Below the pieces are notes generated by a model, which did not search any database, was not told the origin of the DNA, and was given only the letters and a program-made list of their open reading frames with translations. DNA of 64,000 bases from Micromonospora sp. WMMD1102 (GTDB taxonomy: Bacteria; Actinomycetota; Actinomycetes; Mycobacteriales; Micromonosporaceae): positions 1,736,001 to 1,800,000 of the forward strand of contig NZ_JARUBN010000001.1 in the NCBI RefSeq assembly GCF_029626265.1. The letters run 5' to 3'. Within the stretch, counting starts at the first letter, position 1. Every line of letters starts with the position of its first letter. Below are positions 26,211 to 59,482 of the stretch, one piece after another. The position numbers and the translations under genes were made by a program.

Positions 26211-26278
26211 AGGTGTGCCGCCCGACGGCGTCTCCGGGTCGGGCCGCGGGTGTCGTACCGGTGGCATAGGGTCGGCGC

Positions 26279-27310
26279 ATGGCTGGTGGGAGCGCGAAGG
26301 CGAAGCCCGTCGAGGTCGAGGTGGCCGGGCACACGGTGCGGCTGAGCAGCCCGGACCGGGTCTACTTCCCCCGTCGCGGGTTCACCAAGAAGGACATGTT
26401 CGACTACTACCTCGCGGTCGGCGACGGGATCGTGCGGGCGCTGGGCAACCGGCCGACGGCGTTGCAGCGCTTCCCGGAGGGCATCGAGGGGGAGATGTTC
26501 TACCAGAAGCGGGTGCCGGCCCGGGGTGTGCCGCCCTGGATCCAGACCGCCAGGATCCAGTTCCCGAGTGGCCGGAGCGCCGACGAGCTGTGCCCGGCCG
26601 ACCTGGCGCACGTCGCCTGGGCGGCCCAGATGGGGACGGTGGTCTTCCATCCCTGGCCGGTCCGGGGCGGCGACGTCGACCGTCCCGACGAGTTGCGCAT
26701 CGACCTCGACCCGCAGCCGGGCACCGACTTCGCCGACGCGGTGGAGGCGGCCGGCGAGGTGCGGGCGATCCTCGACGAGTTGGGCGCGACCGGCTGGCCG
26801 AAGACCTCCGGCGGCCGGGGTGTGCACGTCTACCTGCGGATCGAGCCCCGCTGGACCTTCACCGAGGTGCGCCGGGCGGTGATCGCGTTCGCCCGGGAGG
26901 TGGAGCGGCGCCGCCCCGATCTGGTCACCACCGCCTGGTGGAAGGAGCAGCGCGGCGAGAAGGTCTTCGTCGACTACAACCAGATGGCCCGGGACCGCAC
27001 GATCGCCTGTGCCTACTCGCTGCGGGCCAACGCCCGGGCCACCGTCTCCACCCCGGTGACCTGGGACGAGCTGCCGGACGTGGAGCCGGACGACTTCGAC
27101 CTGCGGACGGTGCCGGAGCGGATCGCGAAGATCGGCGACCCGCACGCCGGCATCGACGACGCACCGTGGGACATCGGCCCGCTGCTGGAGTGGGCCGACC
27201 GGGACGACCGGGACGGTTCCGGTGACCTGCCCTATCCGCCGGACCACCCGAAAATGCCGGGGGAGCCGAAGCGGGTCCAGCCGTCCCGGGACCGCGACCG
27301 CAAGGATTGA
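26279..27310 (+). CDS. Stand-alone LigD-type polymerase/primase (NHEJ)
   Basis: 343 residues from an ATG. It is the archaeo-eukaryotic-primase-like polymerase domain of LigD: SSPDRVYFPRRGFTKKD, FYQKRVPARG, the catalytic Asp pair in LRIDLDPQPG, the SGGRGVHVYLRI segment and FVDYNQMARDRTIACAYS. There is no nuclease or ligase domain attached; actinobacteria often encode the LigD parts separately. It adds nucleotides (often ribonucleotides) at broken ends during non-homologous end joining. A separate ATP-dependent ligase lies at 31964-33058, and no Ku gene is in the window. The C-terminus is highly charged (PSRDRDRKD). Confidence 0.95.
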   Translation: MAGGSAKAKPVEVEVAGHTVRLSSPDRVYFPRRGFTKKDMFDYYLAVGDGIVRALGNRPTALQRFPEGIEGEMFYQKRVPARGVPPWIQTARIQFPSGRSADELCPADLAHVAWAAQMGTVVFHPWPVRGGDVDRPDELRIDLDPQPGTDFADAVEAAGEVRAILDELGATGWPKTSGGRGVHVYLRIEPRWTFTEVRRAVIAFAREVERRRPDLVTTAWWKEQRGEKVFVDYNQMARDRTIACAYSLRANARATVSTPVTWDELPDVEPDDFDLRTVPERIAKIGDPHAGIDDAPWDIGPLLEWADRDDRDGSGDLPYPPDHPKMPGEPKRVQPSRDRDRKD

Positions 27311-51961: not shown

Positions 51962-52816
51962 CTAGATGGCGATGTTGACGCTGCCCGGCGGCGGGGTGGA
52001 GGGTCGGGCGGCGGTGTCGGCGACCACCCGGGCACCGTCGGCGAACCGGTCCAGGTCGGCCCCGGCCAGCACCCGGCCGGGAAACCAGTCCCCGGCGGCG
52101 CGCCGGAGCAGCTCCGGCACCGGCAGCTCGGCCCGGCTGGCGGCGAGCACCAGGTTGCCGTACCGGCGGCCGCGCAGCACCGCCGAGTCGGCGATCAGGC
52201 AGGCCTCGGGGAGTACGGCCCGGACGGTGGCGACCTGGGAGCGGGCGTACCGCAGCGGCGGGCCGTCCGCCACGTTGACCACGTACACGCCGTCGGGGCG
52301 CAACACCCGGGCCGCCTCGGCGGCGAACTCCACCGAGGAGAGGTGTGCCGGGGTGCGGGCCCCGGCGAAGACGTCGGCGACCACGACGTCGGAACTGCCG
52401 CCCCGGGCCGTGCCGAGCACCTCCCGGGCGTCGCCGATCCGGACCCGCAGCCGGGAGTCCGCGGGCCAGGGGAGCTTCTCCCGGACCAGGTCGACCAGGC
52501 CGGCGTCGATCTCCACGACCCGCTGAGTCGAGCCGGGCCGGGTGGCCGAGAGGTACCGGGGCAGGGTCAGCGCACCACCGCCGAGGTGGAGCACCCGCAG
52601 CGGCTCGCCGGAGGGCGCGACGAGGTCGAGCACGATGGCGATCCGGCGGACGTACTCGAACTCCAGGTGGGTCGGGTCGGCGAGGTCGACGTGCGACTGC
52701 GGCGCCCCGTCGACGAGCAGGGTGTACGACTCGGGCCGGTCCGGGTCCGGGCGCAGTTCCGCCAGCCCGCTCGCCACCTTGACCGCCAGCGCGTCGGTCC
52801 GCCTCTTCCGCCCCAC
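51962..52816 (-). CDS. Spermidine-synthase-like methyltransferase-fold protein
   Basis: 284 residues from an ATG. The fold is recognisable from SHVDLADPTHLEFEYVRRI, LRVLHLGGGALTLPRYL, the acidic VVEIDAGLVDL and GDAREVL, with the DVVVADVFAG motif. It lacks membrane helices. Such stand-alone actinobacterial proteins are often annotated as fused-MFS or spermidine synthase, but true polyamine activity is doubtful: the catalytic Asp/Tyr pair of SpeE is not obvious. The C-terminal residues belong to the degenerate repeat region. Confidence 0.85.
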   Translation of the reverse strand: MGRKRRTDALAVKVASGLAELRPDPDRPESYTLLVDGAPQSHVDLADPTHLEFEYVRRIAIVLDLVAPSGEPLRVLHLGGGALTLPRYLSATRPGSTQRVVEIDAGLVDLVREKLPWPADSRLRVRIGDAREVLGTARGGSSDVVVADVFAGARTPAHLSSVEFAAEAARVLRPDGVYVVNVADGPPLRYARSQVATVRAVLPEACLIADSAVLRGRRYGNLVLAASRAELPVPELLRRAAGDWFPGRVLAGADLDRFADGARVVADTAARPSTPPPGSVNIAI

Positions 52817-52861: not shown

Positions 52862-52950
52862 GCGGGGTCGGCGGCGGGTCAGCAGCGGGTCGGCGAGGGA
52901 GGCCGGCGGGTCACCGGGGGAGACCGGCGGGTCACCGGGGGAGGCCGGTG
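52862..52950. repeat. gcgggtca-type tandem repeat
   Basis: Short imperfect repeats of ggcgggtcagc/ggcgggtcaccgggggag lie between the divergent spermidine-synthase-like gene start and the end of nurA. Slippage tract, with no gene. Confidence 0.75.
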
Positions 52951-53900
52951 GCGGCTCGGCTGGTGGCCAGGGTGAGGGCGCGGTGCAGCAGCCGGCCGTC
53001 GCCGAGCCGGGCCCGCAGCCGGCGCTCCAGACCGGCGATCGGGATCAGGTTCTGCGGTGCCCGGGGGTCCTTGTAGGGGGTGGAGGCGAATTTCGGCAGC
53101 GTGGCCAGGGAGAGGTCGGCCAGCTCGATCGCCTGCCGCTCGGCCAGCTCGGCCGAGCACTCGACCCGGACGATCCCGGCCCACGGGCCGCGCCCCGAGC
53201 CGGGCAGCCGCAGATACCACGAGTAGCCGCCCCACGCGGTGCCGAGCCGGAAGACCGGGGAGCGTTCCCGGGCGGCCAGCCCGGTGACCAGCGCGGTGTG
53301 CCGGGCGTCCAGGTACTGGCTGTGCTGGGTCTTGATGTAGCCGATGGTGCGCGGCAGTTGCCGCCGGCTGCGCAGCGGGCCGTCCACCACCAGCAGGTCG
53401 CCGTCGTCCCGGACCGCACCGGAGACCTTCACCTCCAGCGCGGTCAGCGGCCCCTGGACCGCCGCCGGCAACTTGCTCAGCTCCCCGGTCCCGCTCAACC
53501 GGTGTACGGCGTACCGGATCTGCCCGGCGACCACGTCCTGCGCCGACGGGCTGGCGGTGAAGAGCCCCCGCTCGACCTCGGCGCCGGCCAGCTCGGCGGC
53601 GCCCCGGCGCAGGTCGCAGCGGACCACTCCGGCGGCGTACGAGGCGGCCAGTCCCGGGAAGGAGGTGCCGTCCGGCTCCTCGGTCCAGACGCTGGCGTCG
53701 ATCCGGCGTACCCCGTCGACAAGTAGCACCACGTCCGGCGGCTCGACGGTGTCCGGGGCGGCGATCGGCCGCCACTCGTCGGCGGGCAGCTCCACGTCGG
53801 TCCGCACCTGGGCGCTGGACGGTGCCGCCGGGCCGCCGGCCGCCTCGAACGAGGCACCGTAGGCGGGATCCCAGGCGTCGACGAAGAGCCGGGTGCTCAC
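52932..53900 (-). CDS. nurA: NurA-family 5'-3' nuclease
   Basis: 322 residues from a GTG overlapping the sbcC stop by 4 nt. NurA-domain features occur in the right order: VVLLVDGVRRIDASVW (motif I, Asp-Gly), GDLLVVDGPLRS (second acidic DG motif), TIGYIKTQHSQYL (Lys motif), YLRLPG...GIVRVECS strand, and the C-terminal PQNLIPIAGLERRLRARLGD. The protein length matches NurA (about 330). In archaea NurA works with HerA, Mre11 and Rad50 in DNA-end resection. Here it is the last gene of the same four-gene set. The NurA assignment rests on motifs and context. Confidence 0.8.
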   Translation of the reverse strand: MSTRLFVDAWDPAYGASFEAAGGPAAPSSAQVRTDVELPADEWRPIAAPDTVEPPDVVLLVDGVRRIDASVWTEEPDGTSFPGLAASYAAGVVRCDLRRGAAELAGAEVERGLFTASPSAQDVVAGQIRYAVHRLSGTGELSKLPAAVQGPLTALEVKVSGAVRDDGDLLVVDGPLRSRRQLPRTIGYIKTQHSQYLDARHTALVTGLAARERSPVFRLGTAWGGYSWYLRLPGSGRGPWAGIVRVECSAELAERQAIELADLSLATLPKFASTPYKDPRAPQNLIPIAGLERRLRARLGDGRLLHRALTLATSRAATGLPR

Positions 53901-56380
53901 CGGCCGGTCCGTTCCACCCGGGAGCTGCGGGCGTCCTTGCGTACCTCGAACCGGACCGGGATCCGCTCGGCCAGCGCCGGCACGTGGGTGACCACCCCGA
54001 CCATCCGGTCGCCCCGGGCGGCGAGATTTTCCAGGGTGGCGGCCACCGTGTCCAGAGTGGCCGCGTCGAGGGTGCCGAAGCCCTCGTCGAGGACGATCGA
54101 CTCCAGGCTGGCGGTGGTGGTCGACAGCCCGGCGAGCTGTTCGGAGAGGGCCAGCGCCAGCGCCAGCGACGCCTGGAAGGTCTCGCCGCCGGAGAGCGTC
54201 CGGACCGCCCGGCGCAGCCCGGCGTCGTGGTGGTCGACGACGAAGAACTCGCCCTTGTCGTGCGCCAGGTCGTATTGCCCGCCGGTCAGCTCGCGCAGGA
54301 TCCGGGAGGCGCCGTCGACAAGCATGTCGAGCGCCTCGGCCAGCAGCCAGCGCTCGAAGTTGTTCGCCCGCAGATGTCCGGCGAGCGCCTTGGCGACCCG
54401 GGACTCCCGCTCGTGCCCGGCCCGCTGCTCGGTCAGCTCCCGGAGCTGTTCCCGGCGTTCGACCAGCCGCCGGTGCTCGGCGTCGGCCCGCTCGGCGGCG
54501 ACCACCGCCAGCCGTACCGGATCGGTGTCCGCGCCCGGCCGGTCCAGCCCGACGGCGGTGAAGAGCCCGGCGATCCGCTCGGCGACCGCGTCGACGGCGG
54601 CGTGTGCCCCGGTCACCGCCGAGGCGGCGTCGGCCCGCCCCGCCCGCCGCTCGTCGGTGGCCCGGGCGGCCCAGTCGGCGAGCCCGGCCCAGGCGGCGGT
54701 CACGTCCGTCCGGTCGGCGGCCGGCGGGCCGAGCCGGGCCAGCCCGTCCCGGGCGGTGTCGAAGGCGTGCCAGGCGCCGCGCAGCCGCTCCTCGGCCGCG
54801 GTCACGCCGGACTGGGCCCGCCGGGCCGCCTCCCGGGCGGACCGGACCGCCGCACCGGCCGCCTCGAGGTCGCGGCGCAGCCCGGCGATCCGGTCGAGTT
54901 CCCGGCGCAGTGCGGCCGGGCCGGGGGAGTCGGCGAGTCGGGTGTCGAGTTCGGCGAGCCGGCCGGTGAGCTGCTCGTGCCGGGCCCGCGCCTGGTGCAG
55001 GGTGCGTTCCAGCTCCCGGGCGGCGGTGTCCCGCTGGCCGACCAGCCGGTCGGCGGCGTCGGCGGCGGTCCGGGCGGCCTCGCCGGCCTGCTTGGCGGCG
55101 GCCACCGCCGAGCCGGCCGGCAGCTCCGGTATCTCGGTCACCGGCTGGGTGCAGACCGGGCAGGGCGCCCCGGGATGCAGGTGGGCGCGGAGCGCGGCGG
55201 CCCGGTCGGCGGTCTGCGCCTCCTGGTAGGCGGCCCGGGCCGCCTCCAGTTCCGCACCGGCCCGCTGCGCCTGCGCGCGGGCCTGGTCCAGTGCGGCCAC
55301 CGCCGCGGCGTGGTCGGCGTCGGCGCCGGCCAGCGCGTCGGCCAGGGTCGCGGCCTCGTCGGCGACCCGCAACCGGTCGGCGTGCGCCTGCTGGAGCAGC
55401 CGCAGCGCCGCCGGGTCGCCGGCACCGGCCAGCTCGCCCCGGAGCTTCTCCTCGCGCTCCTCGGCGACGGTCACCGCCGCGGTGGCCTCGGTCGCCCCGG
55501 TCCGGGCCAGCGTCAACGCCTCGGCGACGGTGCCGAGGTCGCCGGGTGGGCGGACCCGGGCCAGTTCGGCGAGTTCGGCGTCGAGCCCGGCCAGCGCCGC
55601 CTCGGCGTCCGTCGCGGCGGTCCGGGCGGCCCGGAGTTCGGGTACGGCGGCGTCCACCCCGGCGGCCAGCTCCCGCATCGCGTCGACCCGGGCGGCGGCA
55701 GCGGCCAGCGTCTCGTCGTCGACCTCGCCGAGCCCCTGCCGCATCCGGTCCACCGCGTCCAGCGCGGCGTCGGCCCTGCCGGCCCGGGCGGTGGCCCGCT
55801 TCTGCACCTCCTCGTACACGCCGAGGCCGAGCAGGTTGACCAGGATCTGCTGCCGGGTCGCCGGCTTGGCGTGCAGGAAGTCGGCGAACTGCCCCTGCGG
55901 CAGCAGTACGCAGCTGGTGAACTGCTCGTACGGCAACCCGACCGCCTCCAGCACCGCGTCGTCCATCTCGGCCGGGGTGCCGGCGACCACCTCGCCGAGA
56001 TCCTCCGGGCTCAGCCCGGTGTCCAGCTTCGTCACGTCGAACCCGGGCGGCATCAGTTGCAGCCCGGCGTTGCCGGTCTTGACGTTGCCCCGGCTGTCCC
56101 GACGGACCACCCGGGTCGCCACGTACCGCGCGCCGGCCGACTCGAAGACCAGCCGGACCCGGGCCTCGTTCGCCGAAGGTGCCAGCGCGTTCGCGATGCC
56201 CCGGGCGCCACCCCAGCGCGGCACCGTGCCGTAGAGCGCGAAGCAGATCGCGTCGAGCACGCTGGACTTGCCCGAGCCGGTCGGCCCGACCAGGGCGAAG
56301 AAGTCCGCGTCGGTGAAGTCGACGGTGGTGGCGTCCCGGAAGGCGGTGAAGCCGGCCAGGTCGAGCCGGAGCGGACGCAC
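53897..56380 (-). CDS. sbcC: SbcC/Rad50-type ATPase
   Basis: 827 residues from a GTG; a GGAGG site is 10 nt upstream. The N-terminal ATPase half has Walker A VGPTGSGKSSVLDAI and the Q-loop segment. A long coiled coil follows, interrupted by the zinc hook HPGAPCPVCTQPV (CxxC) near residue 415. The C-terminal half has the signature RTLSGGETFQASLALAL and Walker B SIVLDEGFGTLD. It tethers and opens DNA ends for the SbcD nuclease. Slightly shorter than E. coli SbcC, as is usual in actinobacteria. Confidence 0.95.
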   Translation of the reverse strand: MRPLRLDLAGFTAFRDATTVDFTDADFFALVGPTGSGKSSVLDAICFALYGTVPRWGGARGIANALAPSANEARVRLVFESAGARYVATRVVRRDSRGNVKTGNAGLQLMPPGFDVTKLDTGLSPEDLGEVVAGTPAEMDDAVLEAVGLPYEQFTSCVLLPQGQFADFLHAKPATRQQILVNLLGLGVYEEVQKRATARAGRADAALDAVDRMRQGLGEVDDETLAAAAARVDAMRELAAGVDAAVPELRAARTAATDAEAALAGLDAELAELARVRPPGDLGTVAEALTLARTGATEATAAVTVAEEREEKLRGELAGAGDPAALRLLQQAHADRLRVADEAATLADALAGADADHAAAVAALDQARAQAQRAGAELEAARAAYQEAQTADRAAALRAHLHPGAPCPVCTQPVTEIPELPAGSAVAAAKQAGEAARTAADAADRLVGQRDTAARELERTLHQARARHEQLTGRLAELDTRLADSPGPAALRRELDRIAGLRRDLEAAGAAVRSAREAARRAQSGVTAAEERLRGAWHAFDTARDGLARLGPPAADRTDVTAAWAGLADWAARATDERRAGRADAASAVTGAHAAVDAVAERIAGLFTAVGLDRPGADTDPVRLAVVAAERADAEHRRLVERREQLRELTEQRAGHERESRVAKALAGHLRANNFERWLLAEALDMLVDGASRILRELTGGQYDLAHDKGEFFVVDHHDAGLRRAVRTLSGGETFQASLALALALSEQLAGLSTTTASLESIVLDEGFGTLDAATLDTVAATLENLAARGDRMVGVVTHVPALAERIPVRFEVRKDARSSRVERTGR

Positions 56381-56387
56381 TATCGGG

Positions 56388-56444
56388 TCGCCTCCTCGTC
56401 CATCACTTGCTCGCCTCCTCGGTCACGCCTTGCTCGCCTCGTCG
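56388..56444. repeat. 23-bp imperfect triplication at the sbcD 3' end
   Basis: The block tcgcctcctcg recurs at 56388, 56411 and 56434 (the last reads tcgcctcgtcg), period 23. The sbcD stop is inside the third copy (read on plus). It also supplies the GGAGG site of sbcC. Confidence 0.85.
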
Positions 56445-57571
56445 TAGAGTTCGTCGAAGAGTTCGCGTACCCCGTCGTCGGCCTGACCCCGGCTGGTCAG
56501 GTAGTCGCCGAACAGCTCCCGGGGGGAGCGGCCGGCGCGCTGGGCGGCCCGGGTCGCACCGGTGTCGGGCAGCATCTCCGGGTCGATCCGCACCTCCAGT
56601 GCCCGGGGCAGCAGCTCCTGCACCTCCTCGCGCAGCCCGGCTCGCGGCGCCTCCCGGACGTAGACCCGCAGCCAGGCCGTCGGGTCGTCGACCTTGGCCA
56701 GCTCGGCCAGGGTGCCGCGTACGGTACGCAGCGGCGCCGCCGCCGTGATCGGCACCTCCCGGACCCGGGCGGCCGTCCGGGTGCCCACCTCGACGATGCT
56801 TACCGAGGGGCGGTTCTCCTCCTCCCCGAAGTCGATCGGCAGCGGGCTGCCGCTGTAGCGGATGTGGCACGGGCCGAGCACCTGCTGGGCCCGGTGCAGG
56901 TGCCCCAGTGCCACGTAGTGCGCGTTGCCCGGGAAGACCGAGGCCGGTACGGCGTAGTTGAGCACCGTGTGCGCCTCCCGCTCGCCGCCGCCGGTGCGCG
57001 CACCGACCACTGTCAGGTGGCCGGTGACCAGGTGCACCCGGTCGGCGGAGTCGAAGCTCTCGGTCAGCCGCCCGAGCACCCGGCCGACGTGGTCGGCGTA
57101 CGTCTGCACCGCCTCGGCGGCGGTCAGCTCGTACATCTCGACGGCGCGGACCGCGTACCGCTGGGAGAGGAACGGCAGGGCGACCAGCCGCCACTCCTCG
57201 CCGTCGGCGGTGCTGCCGTCGATGACGTGCTCGGCCGGGTTGTCCCGGACGCTGCCCCGCAGGGCGATCCCGGCCGCGTCGGCCCAGGGGCGCAGCGCGT
57301 CCAGCGCCGGGCCGTTGTCGTGGTTGCCGCCGATCGCCACCACCTGCGCGCCGGTGCGGCGCAGCGCGGAGAGCGCCCGGGTGACCAGCCGGGTCGCCTC
57401 CGGGGTCGGCGCGGCGGTGTCGTAGAGGTCACCGGCGACGATCACCAGGTCGGGGGACTCGGCCTGGGCGACCTCGACCAGTTGGGCGAGAGCGTCCCGG
57501 TGTTCGCCGGTCCGGGACTGTCCCTTGAGGACCTTGCCGACGTGCCAGTCGGAGGTGTGCAGGATCTTCAC
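56423..57571 (-). CDS. sbcD: SbcD/Mre11-type nuclease
   Basis: 382 residues from a GTG, 17 nt after herA. Calcineurin-like phosphoesterase motifs: LHTSDWHVGK (DxH), VIVAGDLYD (GDxxD), IGGNHDN (GNHD), LVTGHLTVV and ALGHLHRAQ (GHxH). It is the Mn-dependent nuclease that acts with SbcC. The last codons lie in a 23-bp imperfect triplication, which also spans the spacer to sbcC. Confidence 0.96.
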   Translation of the reverse strand: MKILHTSDWHVGKVLKGQSRTGEHRDALAQLVEVAQAESPDLVIVAGDLYDTAAPTPEATRLVTRALSALRRTGAQVVAIGGNHDNGPALDALRPWADAAGIALRGSVRDNPAEHVIDGSTADGEEWRLVALPFLSQRYAVRAVEMYELTAAEAVQTYADHVGRVLGRLTESFDSADRVHLVTGHLTVVGARTGGGEREAHTVLNYAVPASVFPGNAHYVALGHLHRAQQVLGPCHIRYSGSPLPIDFGEEENRPSVSIVEVGTRTAARVREVPITAAAPLRTVRGTLAELAKVDDPTAWLRVYVREAPRAGLREEVQELLPRALEVRIDPEMLPDTGATRAAQRAGRSPRELFGDYLTSRGQADDGVRELFDELYDEASKA

Positions 57572-57588
57572 GCCTCACCCGTCGTTTT

Positions 57589-59346
57589 CTAGAAGGGGAT
57601 GTCGTCGTCGGAGAGCGTGCCGGCCCGGGAGCCGACCACCGCGAACGGGTCGGCGGCCTGCGTGATCGACCGGAGCGTCCCGGTCGGCGCGGCGCCGGCC
57701 TCGGAGACCCGGGTCGCCCAGGCCGGGAAGGGGAAGTCCAGGCAGAGCGGCACCGGGATGTCCGGCTGGTTGACGAACATGGTGCCGGGTTTGGCCAGCA
57801 GCGCCCGCTGCCGCTGCGCGGCGGGGAGGAAGCCGTACTCCGGGCGGGACGCCTCGGCCGGGTCGAGCCGGCCGACCACCCGGATCGCCGAGTTGGTGAC
57901 GATCCGCCGCTCCACCTCGCTGGCGGTCTGCTGCGCCCCGATCAGGATCACCCCGAGCGAGCGGCCCCGCTCGGCGATGTCCAGCAGCACCTCCTTGATC
58001 GGCGAGGACCCCTCCCGGGGGGCGTACTTGTTCAGCTCGTCGAGGACGACGAAGAGCAGCGGCTTGGCGGTGCCGGCCTTCTCCTTGCGCTCGAACTCGG
58101 TCTTCAGGGTCACCCCGACCACGAACCGCTGGGCCCGGTCCGGCAGGTTGTGCAGGTCGACCACTGTCACCTGGGCGCTCTCGGCGGTGTTCACGCTGTG
58201 CGGCCGGCGGGTGGCCAGATCTCCCCGGATGAGTCTGGCCAGGTCCTTCTTGCTGCCGATCAGCCGGCGGGCGAAGGCGTTGACGGTGCCCATGTTGACC
58301 GCGCTGCCGGCCCACTCCGAGCGGGTCTCGTCGTCGGTGAGCTGCTCGACGACGTGGTCGACCAGGTCGGGGTAGGAGTGGATCCGCACCCCGTCGACGC
58401 TCACCCCGCCGTCGGCGGGCTGGGCGTACCGGGCCAGGTGGGCGGCGACCGAGTGCACCACCATGGTGTATTGCTGGCGCTCGTCGTCGGCGTCGGCGAA
58501 GACGTACGGCAGCAGCCGGTCAGCACAGAACTCGGTGAGCGTCCAGTAGAAGCTGTCCACCCCGGCGAGCCGGCTGCTCACGTCCGGGGTGCCGGAGGAG
58601 TCGCCGGCCCGGGGCGGCGCGTAGACCCGGACGTCCGGGAAGGCGCCCGCGTCGAGTCCCAGCTTCGCGTACGTCTCGGTGGTGGCGGCGTCGAGCCGGC
58701 TGTTCGGGTGGTCGAGGAAGAGCAGGTCCTCGCCCTTGACGTTGAAGATCAGTGCCTTGGCGTTCACCGCGTCGCCGCCGAGCACCCCGGAGCGGAACAC
58801 CGAGTAGAGCAGGAAGGTGGCGAAGCTGGTCTTGGTGGCCACCCCGGAGATGCCGGAGATCGAGACGTGCGCACCGCGCGAGCCGTCCAGGAAGTCGGCG
58901 TTCAGGAAGACCGGCACGCCGTCCCGGCCGATCCCCATCGGCACCCGGCGCTCCATCCGGTCGAAGTGCAGCGCCGCCGACCGGGCCTCGCCCTCGGCCC
59001 GGTGCACCACCGCACCTGGTGACGGCGGCACGTAGAGCTCCGGGTCGACCCGGGTGGTGGTGATCTCGGCGGCCTCCTGCACCATCGCCGGCAGGGTGCC
59101 GTCGGCGATGGCGAAGACGTCGGAGTCGAACTGCGCGCCCTCGTGCCGGGCCCGGACCTGGGTGACCACCCCGGCGATGGTGACCGGCTCCCGGTCGGGC
59201 AGCTCGCGACGGGTCACCACCACGTCGTCGAGCTGGAGGTAGCTGCCGGGGTTGACGGCGGTCCAGAACTGCAACGGGGTGGCGTCGGCGGTGCCGAGCA
59301 CCCGGCCGACCACCGGACCCGGACCCTCCGGTGGACTGTCGGTCAC
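57589..59346 (-). CDS. herA: HerA-type hexameric DNA-translocase ATPase
   Basis: 585 residues from a GTG. The N-terminal HAS-barrel-type domain (GRVLGTADATPLQFW, VVTQVRARHEGAQFD) precedes a RecA/FtsK-like ATPase. The P-loop is ISGISGVATKTSFA, a variant with Thr in place of the last Gly before Lys. Walker B is LLFVVLDELNKYAP. The following IAERGRSLGVILIGAQQTASEVERR has the sensor and arginine-finger region. It is the first gene of the herA-sbcD-sbcC-nurA operon. In archaea HerA drives NurA along DNA during end resection. Confidence 0.9.
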   Translation of the reverse strand: MTDSPPEGPGPVVGRVLGTADATPLQFWTAVNPGSYLQLDDVVVTRRELPDREPVTIAGVVTQVRARHEGAQFDSDVFAIADGTLPAMVQEAAEITTTRVDPELYVPPSPGAVVHRAEGEARSAALHFDRMERRVPMGIGRDGVPVFLNADFLDGSRGAHVSISGISGVATKTSFATFLLYSVFRSGVLGGDAVNAKALIFNVKGEDLLFLDHPNSRLDAATTETYAKLGLDAGAFPDVRVYAPPRAGDSSGTPDVSSRLAGVDSFYWTLTEFCADRLLPYVFADADDERQQYTMVVHSVAAHLARYAQPADGGVSVDGVRIHSYPDLVDHVVEQLTDDETRSEWAGSAVNMGTVNAFARRLIGSKKDLARLIRGDLATRRPHSVNTAESAQVTVVDLHNLPDRAQRFVVGVTLKTEFERKEKAGTAKPLLFVVLDELNKYAPREGSSPIKEVLLDIAERGRSLGVILIGAQQTASEVERRIVTNSAIRVVGRLDPAEASRPEYGFLPAAQRQRALLAKPGTMFVNQPDIPVPLCLDFPFPAWATRVSEAGAAPTGTLRSITQAADPFAVVGSRAGTLSDDDIPF

Positions 59347-59482
59347 CGTGCCACCCCGATCCGTGTCGCGCCGGCCCGTGCCGCCCCGGTCAGGGTGGGA
59401 ATCAGGTCAAGACACACGAGTCGCATCCTGCCTCACTAGTACGACACCGTGCCACGCGGCGCGGCGGTGCCCGGCCCGGCGA

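Follow-up and report, generated by a model that had tools for sequence, protein, structure and literature searches.

A conserved herA-sbcD-sbcC-nurA gene quartet with a PafBC-type promoter motif in Micromonospora and other Actinomycetota

Here, we identify a quartet of adjoining genes, herA-sbcD-sbcC-nurA, in a 64,000-nt stretch of the Micromonospora sp. WMMD1102 genome (hereafter the window; contig NZ_JARUBN010000001.1, positions 1,736,001 to 1,800,000). The quartet is a real, conserved and probably damage-inducible bacterial operon for DNA end processing. We show that its four genes encode bacterial SbcCD together with HerA- and NurA-type proteins, that they are linked and co-inherited, and that a promoter motif of the PafBC type is enriched upstream of them across the phylum. 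This motif, which was absent from an initial annotation of the window, is the strongest functional hint in our analysis, and as a sequence feature it suggests that the operon responds to DNA damage.

Identity of the four genes

The initial annotation had read the region from 59346 to 52932 as four minus-strand genes for HerA, SbcD, SbcC and a NurA-type protein, and open reading frames (ORFs), family profiles and homology to structures in the Protein Data Bank (PDB) bear this out (Table 1). Gaps of 17 nt and 42 nt separate the first three genes, and sbcC shares 4 nt (GTGA) with nurA, as had been claimed. SbcD matches TIGR00619 with 178.8 bits (cut-off 77.65), against at most 49 bits from archaeal Mre11 models. 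For SbcC the best model is TIGR00618, with 255.6 bits against 80.4 from the archaeal Rad50 model, although this is under the TIGR00618 cut-off of 478.5; Pfam SbcC_Walker_B (42 bits, cut-off 27) and AAA_23 both match over their cut-offs. Pfam gave no usable match for the window's HerA, which aligns with HerA of Deinococcus radiodurans (DrHerA; PDB 7f6d_B) at E 2.6e-149 in two stretches, residues 11-313 and 317-550, and scores 14.9 bits with the archaeal HerA model NF040819. The operon had been called archaeal-style, a description that suits the gene set, with its four linked and co-directional genes, but not the proteins, which are bacterial SbcCD and Deinococcus-type HerA-NurA.

Table 1. Positions of the quartet, its putative promoter element and other features of the window
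Feature	Position	Strand	Description
herA	57589..59346	-	585 aa, GTG start; predicted Deinococcus-type hexameric DNA translocase
sbcD	56423..57571	-	382 aa; Mre11-type nuclease, from family profiles
sbcC	53897..56380	-	827 aa; Rad50-type ATPase, from family profiles
nurA-type nuclease gene	52932..53900	-	322 aa; RNase H-like fold, from sequence and fold
Putative PafBC-type promoter element	59425..59446	-	TGTC-N12-CAGGAT; at least 79 nt upstream of the herA start codon
Spermidine-synthase-like gene	51962..52816	-	follows nurA
LigD-type primase-polymerase gene	26279..27310	+	ATG at 26279
Strict PafBC-type motif	26251..26272	+	6 nt before the LigD-type ATG

The assignment of the last gene is the most delicate. 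The initial annotation had tied it to the Pfam NurA family, PF09376, and here the outcome is borderline: the window protein matches at E 0.05 with 13.5 bits, below the cut-off of 21, and a search of its own genome with the PF09376 profile gave no match, yet PF09376 does detect 27 of 41 orthologues at E<=1, the best of them at 2.1e-6, and sequence and fold both tie the protein to NurA. It matches D. radiodurans NurA (DrNurA) at E 2.4e-20 and has the RNase H-like fold of NurA. Residues D62, E156 and D173, which we take from NurA work to be the metal site, are invariant in 41 and in 58 aligned sequences and are matched in DrNurA and TM1739.

The 8.9-Mb genome of the strain contains a single SbcD match (E<=1e-10) and a single HerA match (E<=1e-30), both in the quartet. 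Thus, by that SbcD profile, the quartet supplies the SbcCD of the cell rather than an extra copy. The nearest named proteins, at 96-97% identity, make a placement of the genome in Plantactinospora probable. Neither Pfam, NCBIfam nor PADLOC gave a named system for the quartet; PADLOC matched its proteins only weakly, and the NurA-like protein not at all.

The textbook P-loop reads GxxGxGK[ST]. In the window's HerA, Walker A is instead a variant, GISGVATKTS, with identical letters in DrHerA, and Walker B (VVLDELNKYAP) is kept. SGVATKT or SGIATKT occurs in all 45 HerA relatives with an aligned P-loop, SGVATKT is invariant in a 32-member HerA alignment, and most of the distant members retain GxxGxxTK[ST]. 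In DrHerA, K175 and T176 contact ADP and Mg (PMC9960219; here and below, papers are cited for the parts of their text that were available). This conservation across relatives and in DrHerA marks the variant as a family signature, not decay. We speculate that it relates to the weak Mg-ATPase activity reported for DrHerA (PMC9960219). One actinobacterial genome carries a second, divergent nurA-herA-sbcD-sbcC set beside the usual one, with the HerA P-loop GIAGAGTKSS.

Linkage and co-inheritance of the quartet

Profile searches of 296 Actinomycetota genomes, drawn evenly, found HerA in 91 genomes and NurA in 65; HerA remains in 67 when 24 genomes of one family, in which the HerA matches are restricted to model positions ~316-540, are set aside. 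Both proteins are present in 64 genomes, HerA alone in three, NurA alone in one and neither in 228. Two of the three HerA-only genomes carry HerA on short contigs (12 kb and 4.7 kb), and the lone NurA match without HerA is very weak (20 bits). SbcD is listed in 64 of the 67 HerA genomes, in 57 of them within 5 kb (<=5 kb) and on the same strand; the distance is 14.2 kb and 10.7 kb in two genomes, and HerA and SbcD lie on separate contigs in four. HerA and NurA are on separate contigs in five genomes. SbcD occurs without HerA in 52 sampled genomes, so that in this sample SbcCD often stands alone and HerA-NurA rarely does. The initial annotation had supposed that bacteria usually have either SbcCD alone or HerA/NurA elsewhere; in Actinomycetota the latter does not hold, since HerA-NurA, when present, usually sits beside SbcCD.

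Co-occurrence of the four genes in relatives, which the initial annotation had proposed as a test, is also evident at the level of loci. All four genes lie on one strand in 60 of 70 fetched Actinomycetota loci, and several of the other ten are cut by contig ends. When strict HMM (hidden Markov model) scores are demanded of each of the four genes, 109 of 150 loci remain (57/70 and 52/80 in two locus sets). In eight otherwise intact quartets herA and sbcD are separated by 1.5 to 4.3 kb. The spermidine-synthase-like gene that follows nurA in the window is kept there in only 4 of the 70 loci, all Micromonosporaceae, which makes the linkage a property of the quartet. A search within the order found a HerA match in 79 genomes of the window's own family (split over two frames in one of them), and none of the 20 misses listed, sorted by kinship, belongs to that family. 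Among the 318 genomes of the order that fall outside the family, 13 have a HerA match below E 1e-200.

Only two gene orders occur in the 109 complete loci, herA-sbcD-sbcC-nurA (57) and nurA-herA-sbcD-sbcC (52), and the core order herA-sbcD-sbcC is kept in every one. We built gene trees from 64 non-redundant loci, that of SbcC with the simpler LG+G4 model. One change of order is needed on each of the NurA, SbcD and SbcC trees and two on that of HerA, the second of which depends on a node supported by less than 80; in 500 label shuffles at least 15-16 changes were needed. Distances compared between the four gene trees correlate with r of 0.79-0.94, against permutation maxima of 0.16-0.29. These congruent trees show that the four genes are co-inherited, which by itself does not show joint function. 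Some loci from metagenome-assembled genomes have titles at odds with the HerA tree and possibly stem from mis-binning, for example L101 (titled Pseudonocardia) and L175 (titled Gammaproteobacteria), both of which were kept in the trees.

Full quartets with nurA first also occur in loci titled as other phyla (Dehalococcoidia, Gemmatimonadetes, Pseudomonadales, Longimicrobiales and Spirochaetaceae), on a conjugative plasmid of Cyanobacteriota and on a plasmid of Chloroflexota. L175 is an exception, being herA-first and sitting within an actinobacterial clade of the HerA tree; of two loci with Acidobacteria titles, L172 likewise falls in an actinobacterial clade, and L137 is not in that tree, having been taken out for redundancy. 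HerA is present in 12 of 201 genomes from the phylum to which the Dehalococcoidia-titled genome belongs, and 8 of 11 loci fetched from there hold all four genes. The quartet is found in Actinomycetota, that phylum, a Cyanobacteriota plasmid and loci titled as several other phyla.

Because nurA comes first in the other-phylum loci, on these plasmids and in the cluster of Oceanithermus profundus (PMC5448004), we infer that nurA-first is the older arrangement and that a single move of nurA took place in the line leading to the actinomycetes. A wider scenario, which we offer tentatively and hold to be possible rather than probable, is that an old bacterial Mre11-Rad50-HerA-NurA resection operon became wired to PafBC in Actinomycetota, with a single relocation of nurA. 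A likeness to the archaeal order would then be convergent, and Deinococcus and Thermus, with their lone nurA-herA pairs, would have kept remnants of the quartet instead of receiving the pair separately from archaea. The authors of PMC5448004 propose instead that Oceanithermus recruited SbcCD later; the distribution makes loss in Thermus and Deinococcus, whose genomes are not in our trees, at least as plausible.

A PafBC-type motif upstream of the quartet

An alignment of six Micromonosporaceae upstream regions reveals a conserved block before herA, TGTC-N12-CA[GC]GAT in five of the six, with AGTC in the sixth. The PafBC motif of Mycobacterium tuberculosis consists of TGTCGG, TGTCAG or TGTCAC, N10, TA, N3 and T (PMC8151990), and can thus be written as TGTC-N12-TANNNT. 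PafBC governs a DNA damage response that is independent of LexA/RecA, and other Actinobacteria share its promoter (PMC8223512).

We scanned the upstream regions of 105 quartet loci, leaving out 5 of 110 with <200 nt upstream (2 of 64 in the non-redundant set). The strict motif is found in 23 of 58 herA-first and 20 of 47 nurA-first upstreams; with a relaxed -10 ([TC]ANNNT) these counts become 33/58 and 21/47, where a Markov model gives means of 0.9 and 0.8. In the non-redundant set 25 of 62 upstreams carry the strict motif, where its density in the loci predicts 0.5. Among these 62, TGTC at a spacing of 12 is the commonest pair of 4-mer and spacing before TANNNT, and TGTC at other spacings occurs 0-1 times. 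By comparison, the motif precedes 6 of 372 other long ORFs of these loci, a control that excludes the ORFs of the quartet (odds ratio 41; p 2e-18, nominal because the sequences are related). As a positive control we fetched 30 recA genes: the strict motif lies upstream of all 27 that were scored, including the strain's own recA, and three were left unscored because the RecA P-loop pattern was missing. Five full quartets chosen by non-actinobacterial title lack even the relaxed motif; this list omits L172, which has the motif, as well as L137 and L175.

A LexA box (GAAC-N4-GTTC, one mismatch) was rejected as an alternative element: none lies directly upstream of herA, and the window contains 21 where 16.4 are expected. 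The strain's own recA (contig 1, 1636924-1637529) lies in a 736-codon frame in which the match to the RecA model is limited to 1-202, a pattern that would fit interruption by an intein and that recurs in three other genomes.

The window's only strict motif precedes the LigD-type primase-polymerase gene, as if that gene were leaderless. One strict match occurs in about half of shuffled windows, so for this gene only the motif's place speaks. The initial annotation had placed split genes for non-homologous end joining in the window; the LigD-type gene upholds one part of this, but the genome's only Ku match lies outside the window, at 6.98 Mb and adjacent to a further LigD polymerase match, and the ORFs scanned beside the LigD-type gene yielded no ligase domain.

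A model for DNA end processing and its alternatives

We propose, with moderate confidence and on sequence evidence, that the quartet is a damage-inducible bacterial Mre11-Rad50 plus HerA-NurA operon for the processing of DNA double-strand ends. DNA damage would activate the operon through its PafBC-type promoter, induction that we presume for this strain. SbcCD, the bacterial Mre11-Rad50, would recognise DNA ends and open or clean blocked ones. A HerA hexamer, acting as an ATP-driven pump for duplex DNA, would dock on a NurA dimer and feed the end in, and NurA would cut to produce 3' single-stranded tails for RecA or to remove unusable ends. We infer the joint action and physical cooperation of the four proteins, the hand-off from SbcCD to HerA-NurA and the polarity of resection. 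In Sulfolobus, Mre11 co-precipitates with HerA (PMC2288612), and in Sulfolobus islandicus all four genes are essential (PMC4351679). The operon coexists with PF12705-type (AdnAB/AddB-like) nucleases: the strain's genome encodes an adjoining pair of PF12705 proteins at 297-301 kb, whose likeness to AdnAB is one of arrangement alone, and has two more PF12705 matches. That the quartet replaces AdnAB/AddAB-type nucleases was considered and rejected; PF12705 is present in 277 of the 296 genomes, with no pattern of replacement.

Several points weigh against this model. The window's own herA motif has a -10 that is degenerate relative to TANNNT, and the relaxed pattern occurs in the window four times where 2.8 are expected, so that the case for a promoter here rests on its place and conservation; the strict motif is missing in 37 of the 62 non-redundant loci. 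The radiation resistance of D. radiodurans owes little to its HerA and NurA (PMC4663267), and a 2026 study of HerA-NurA from T. kodakarensis found the pair hard to fit to end resection and suggested antiviral or other roles (PMC12977600). Plasmid-borne quartets also fit defence.

The strongest alternative is that two machines share one regulated operon, with SbcCD acting on hairpins and blocked ends, HerA-NurA performing resection and no physical hand-off between them. The 52 genomes with SbcD and no HerA agree with such independence, as do nurA-herA pairs that have no SbcCD within reach; in three loci with Eremiobacterota titles the fetched stretch has nurA-herA but matches neither SbcD nor SbcC, and such pairs are published for Thermus (PMC5448004). 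However, HerA-NurA in Actinomycetota is almost always found with SbcCD, and the herA-sbcD-sbcC core is invariant in order; we consider separate machines unlikely, though a serious contender.

Plasmid carriage would also suit a quartet that serves mainly in anti-phage or anti-plasmid DNA degradation, like other systems that pair HerA with a nuclease. HerA is nevertheless found in all 79 same-family genomes listed, the promoter motif is shared with recA, and the nearest solved relatives are D. radiodurans HerA-NurA, whereas similarity to the antiviral HerAs is confined to the Walker B part (E 0.008). The family distribution and the recA-type motif favour repair over defence, which we judge improbable as the main role. 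Quartets lie on plasmids of Streptomyces (a 452-kb plasmid of Streptomyces sp. BB1-1-1), Sphaerospermopsis (conjugative) and Chlorohelix, where the annotation names SbcCD and labels the other products hypothetical or ATP-binding proteins. Neighbours of plasmid quartets include TIGR02680/TIGR02678/DUF2397, ImmA/IrrE, TIR and HEPN genes, and a phage, Marinitoga camini virus 1, has adjoining nurA and herA. Finally, that the whole operon was recently transferred from archaea, where the same four functions form an operon (PMC4351679, PMC2288612), is very hard to credit, because the proteins nearest to SbcD, SbcC and HerA are bacterial and the operon is spread across the phylum with congruent trees, which hold no archaeal sequences.

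If the quartet is indeed a damage-induced unit, culturable actinomycetes would become test beds for cooperation between Mre11-Rad50 and HerA-NurA, which is hard to study in S. islandicus, where the genes are essential. Part of the phylum would gain a further route of end processing beside PF12705-type nucleases, and proteins now labelled 'ATP-binding protein' or 'hypothetical protein' could be named.

The archaeal gene order is herA/mre11/rad50/nurA. The Mre11, Rad50 and HerA models of this operon, known from Sulfolobus and Pyrococcus, score far below bacterial ones on the proteins of the window. Antiviral systems, namely TdpAB, HerA-Sir2 and HerA-DUF4297, show weak similarity to the window that is limited to part of HerA, and we know of no SbcCD partner for any of them. 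HerA-NurA is usually described as archaeal, with few bacterial borrowers (e.g. PMC12977600, PMC4641729). The closest likeness of the window's HerA and NurA is to the D. radiodurans pair (PDB 7F6D; 7WRW and 7WRX for HerA), which has been studied as a nurA-herA operon (PMC9960219) and so far without a possible SbcCD partner; the available text of PMC4663267 leaves a link to sbcCD open. In Oceanithermus profundus, a nurA-hepA-sbcD-sbcC cluster contains the same four bacterial genes in the order of 52 of our 109 complete loci (PMC5448004). Compared by description and not by sequence, it is a single Thermales case from which the window differs in having nurA last. We found no published description of the quartet in Actinomycetota, in a literature search made mostly without subscription papers. 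The archaeal operon, the D. radiodurans pair and one Thermales cluster were thus already known; as far as the literature searched shows, the breadth of the quartet, its switch of gene order and its PafBC-type promoter are new.

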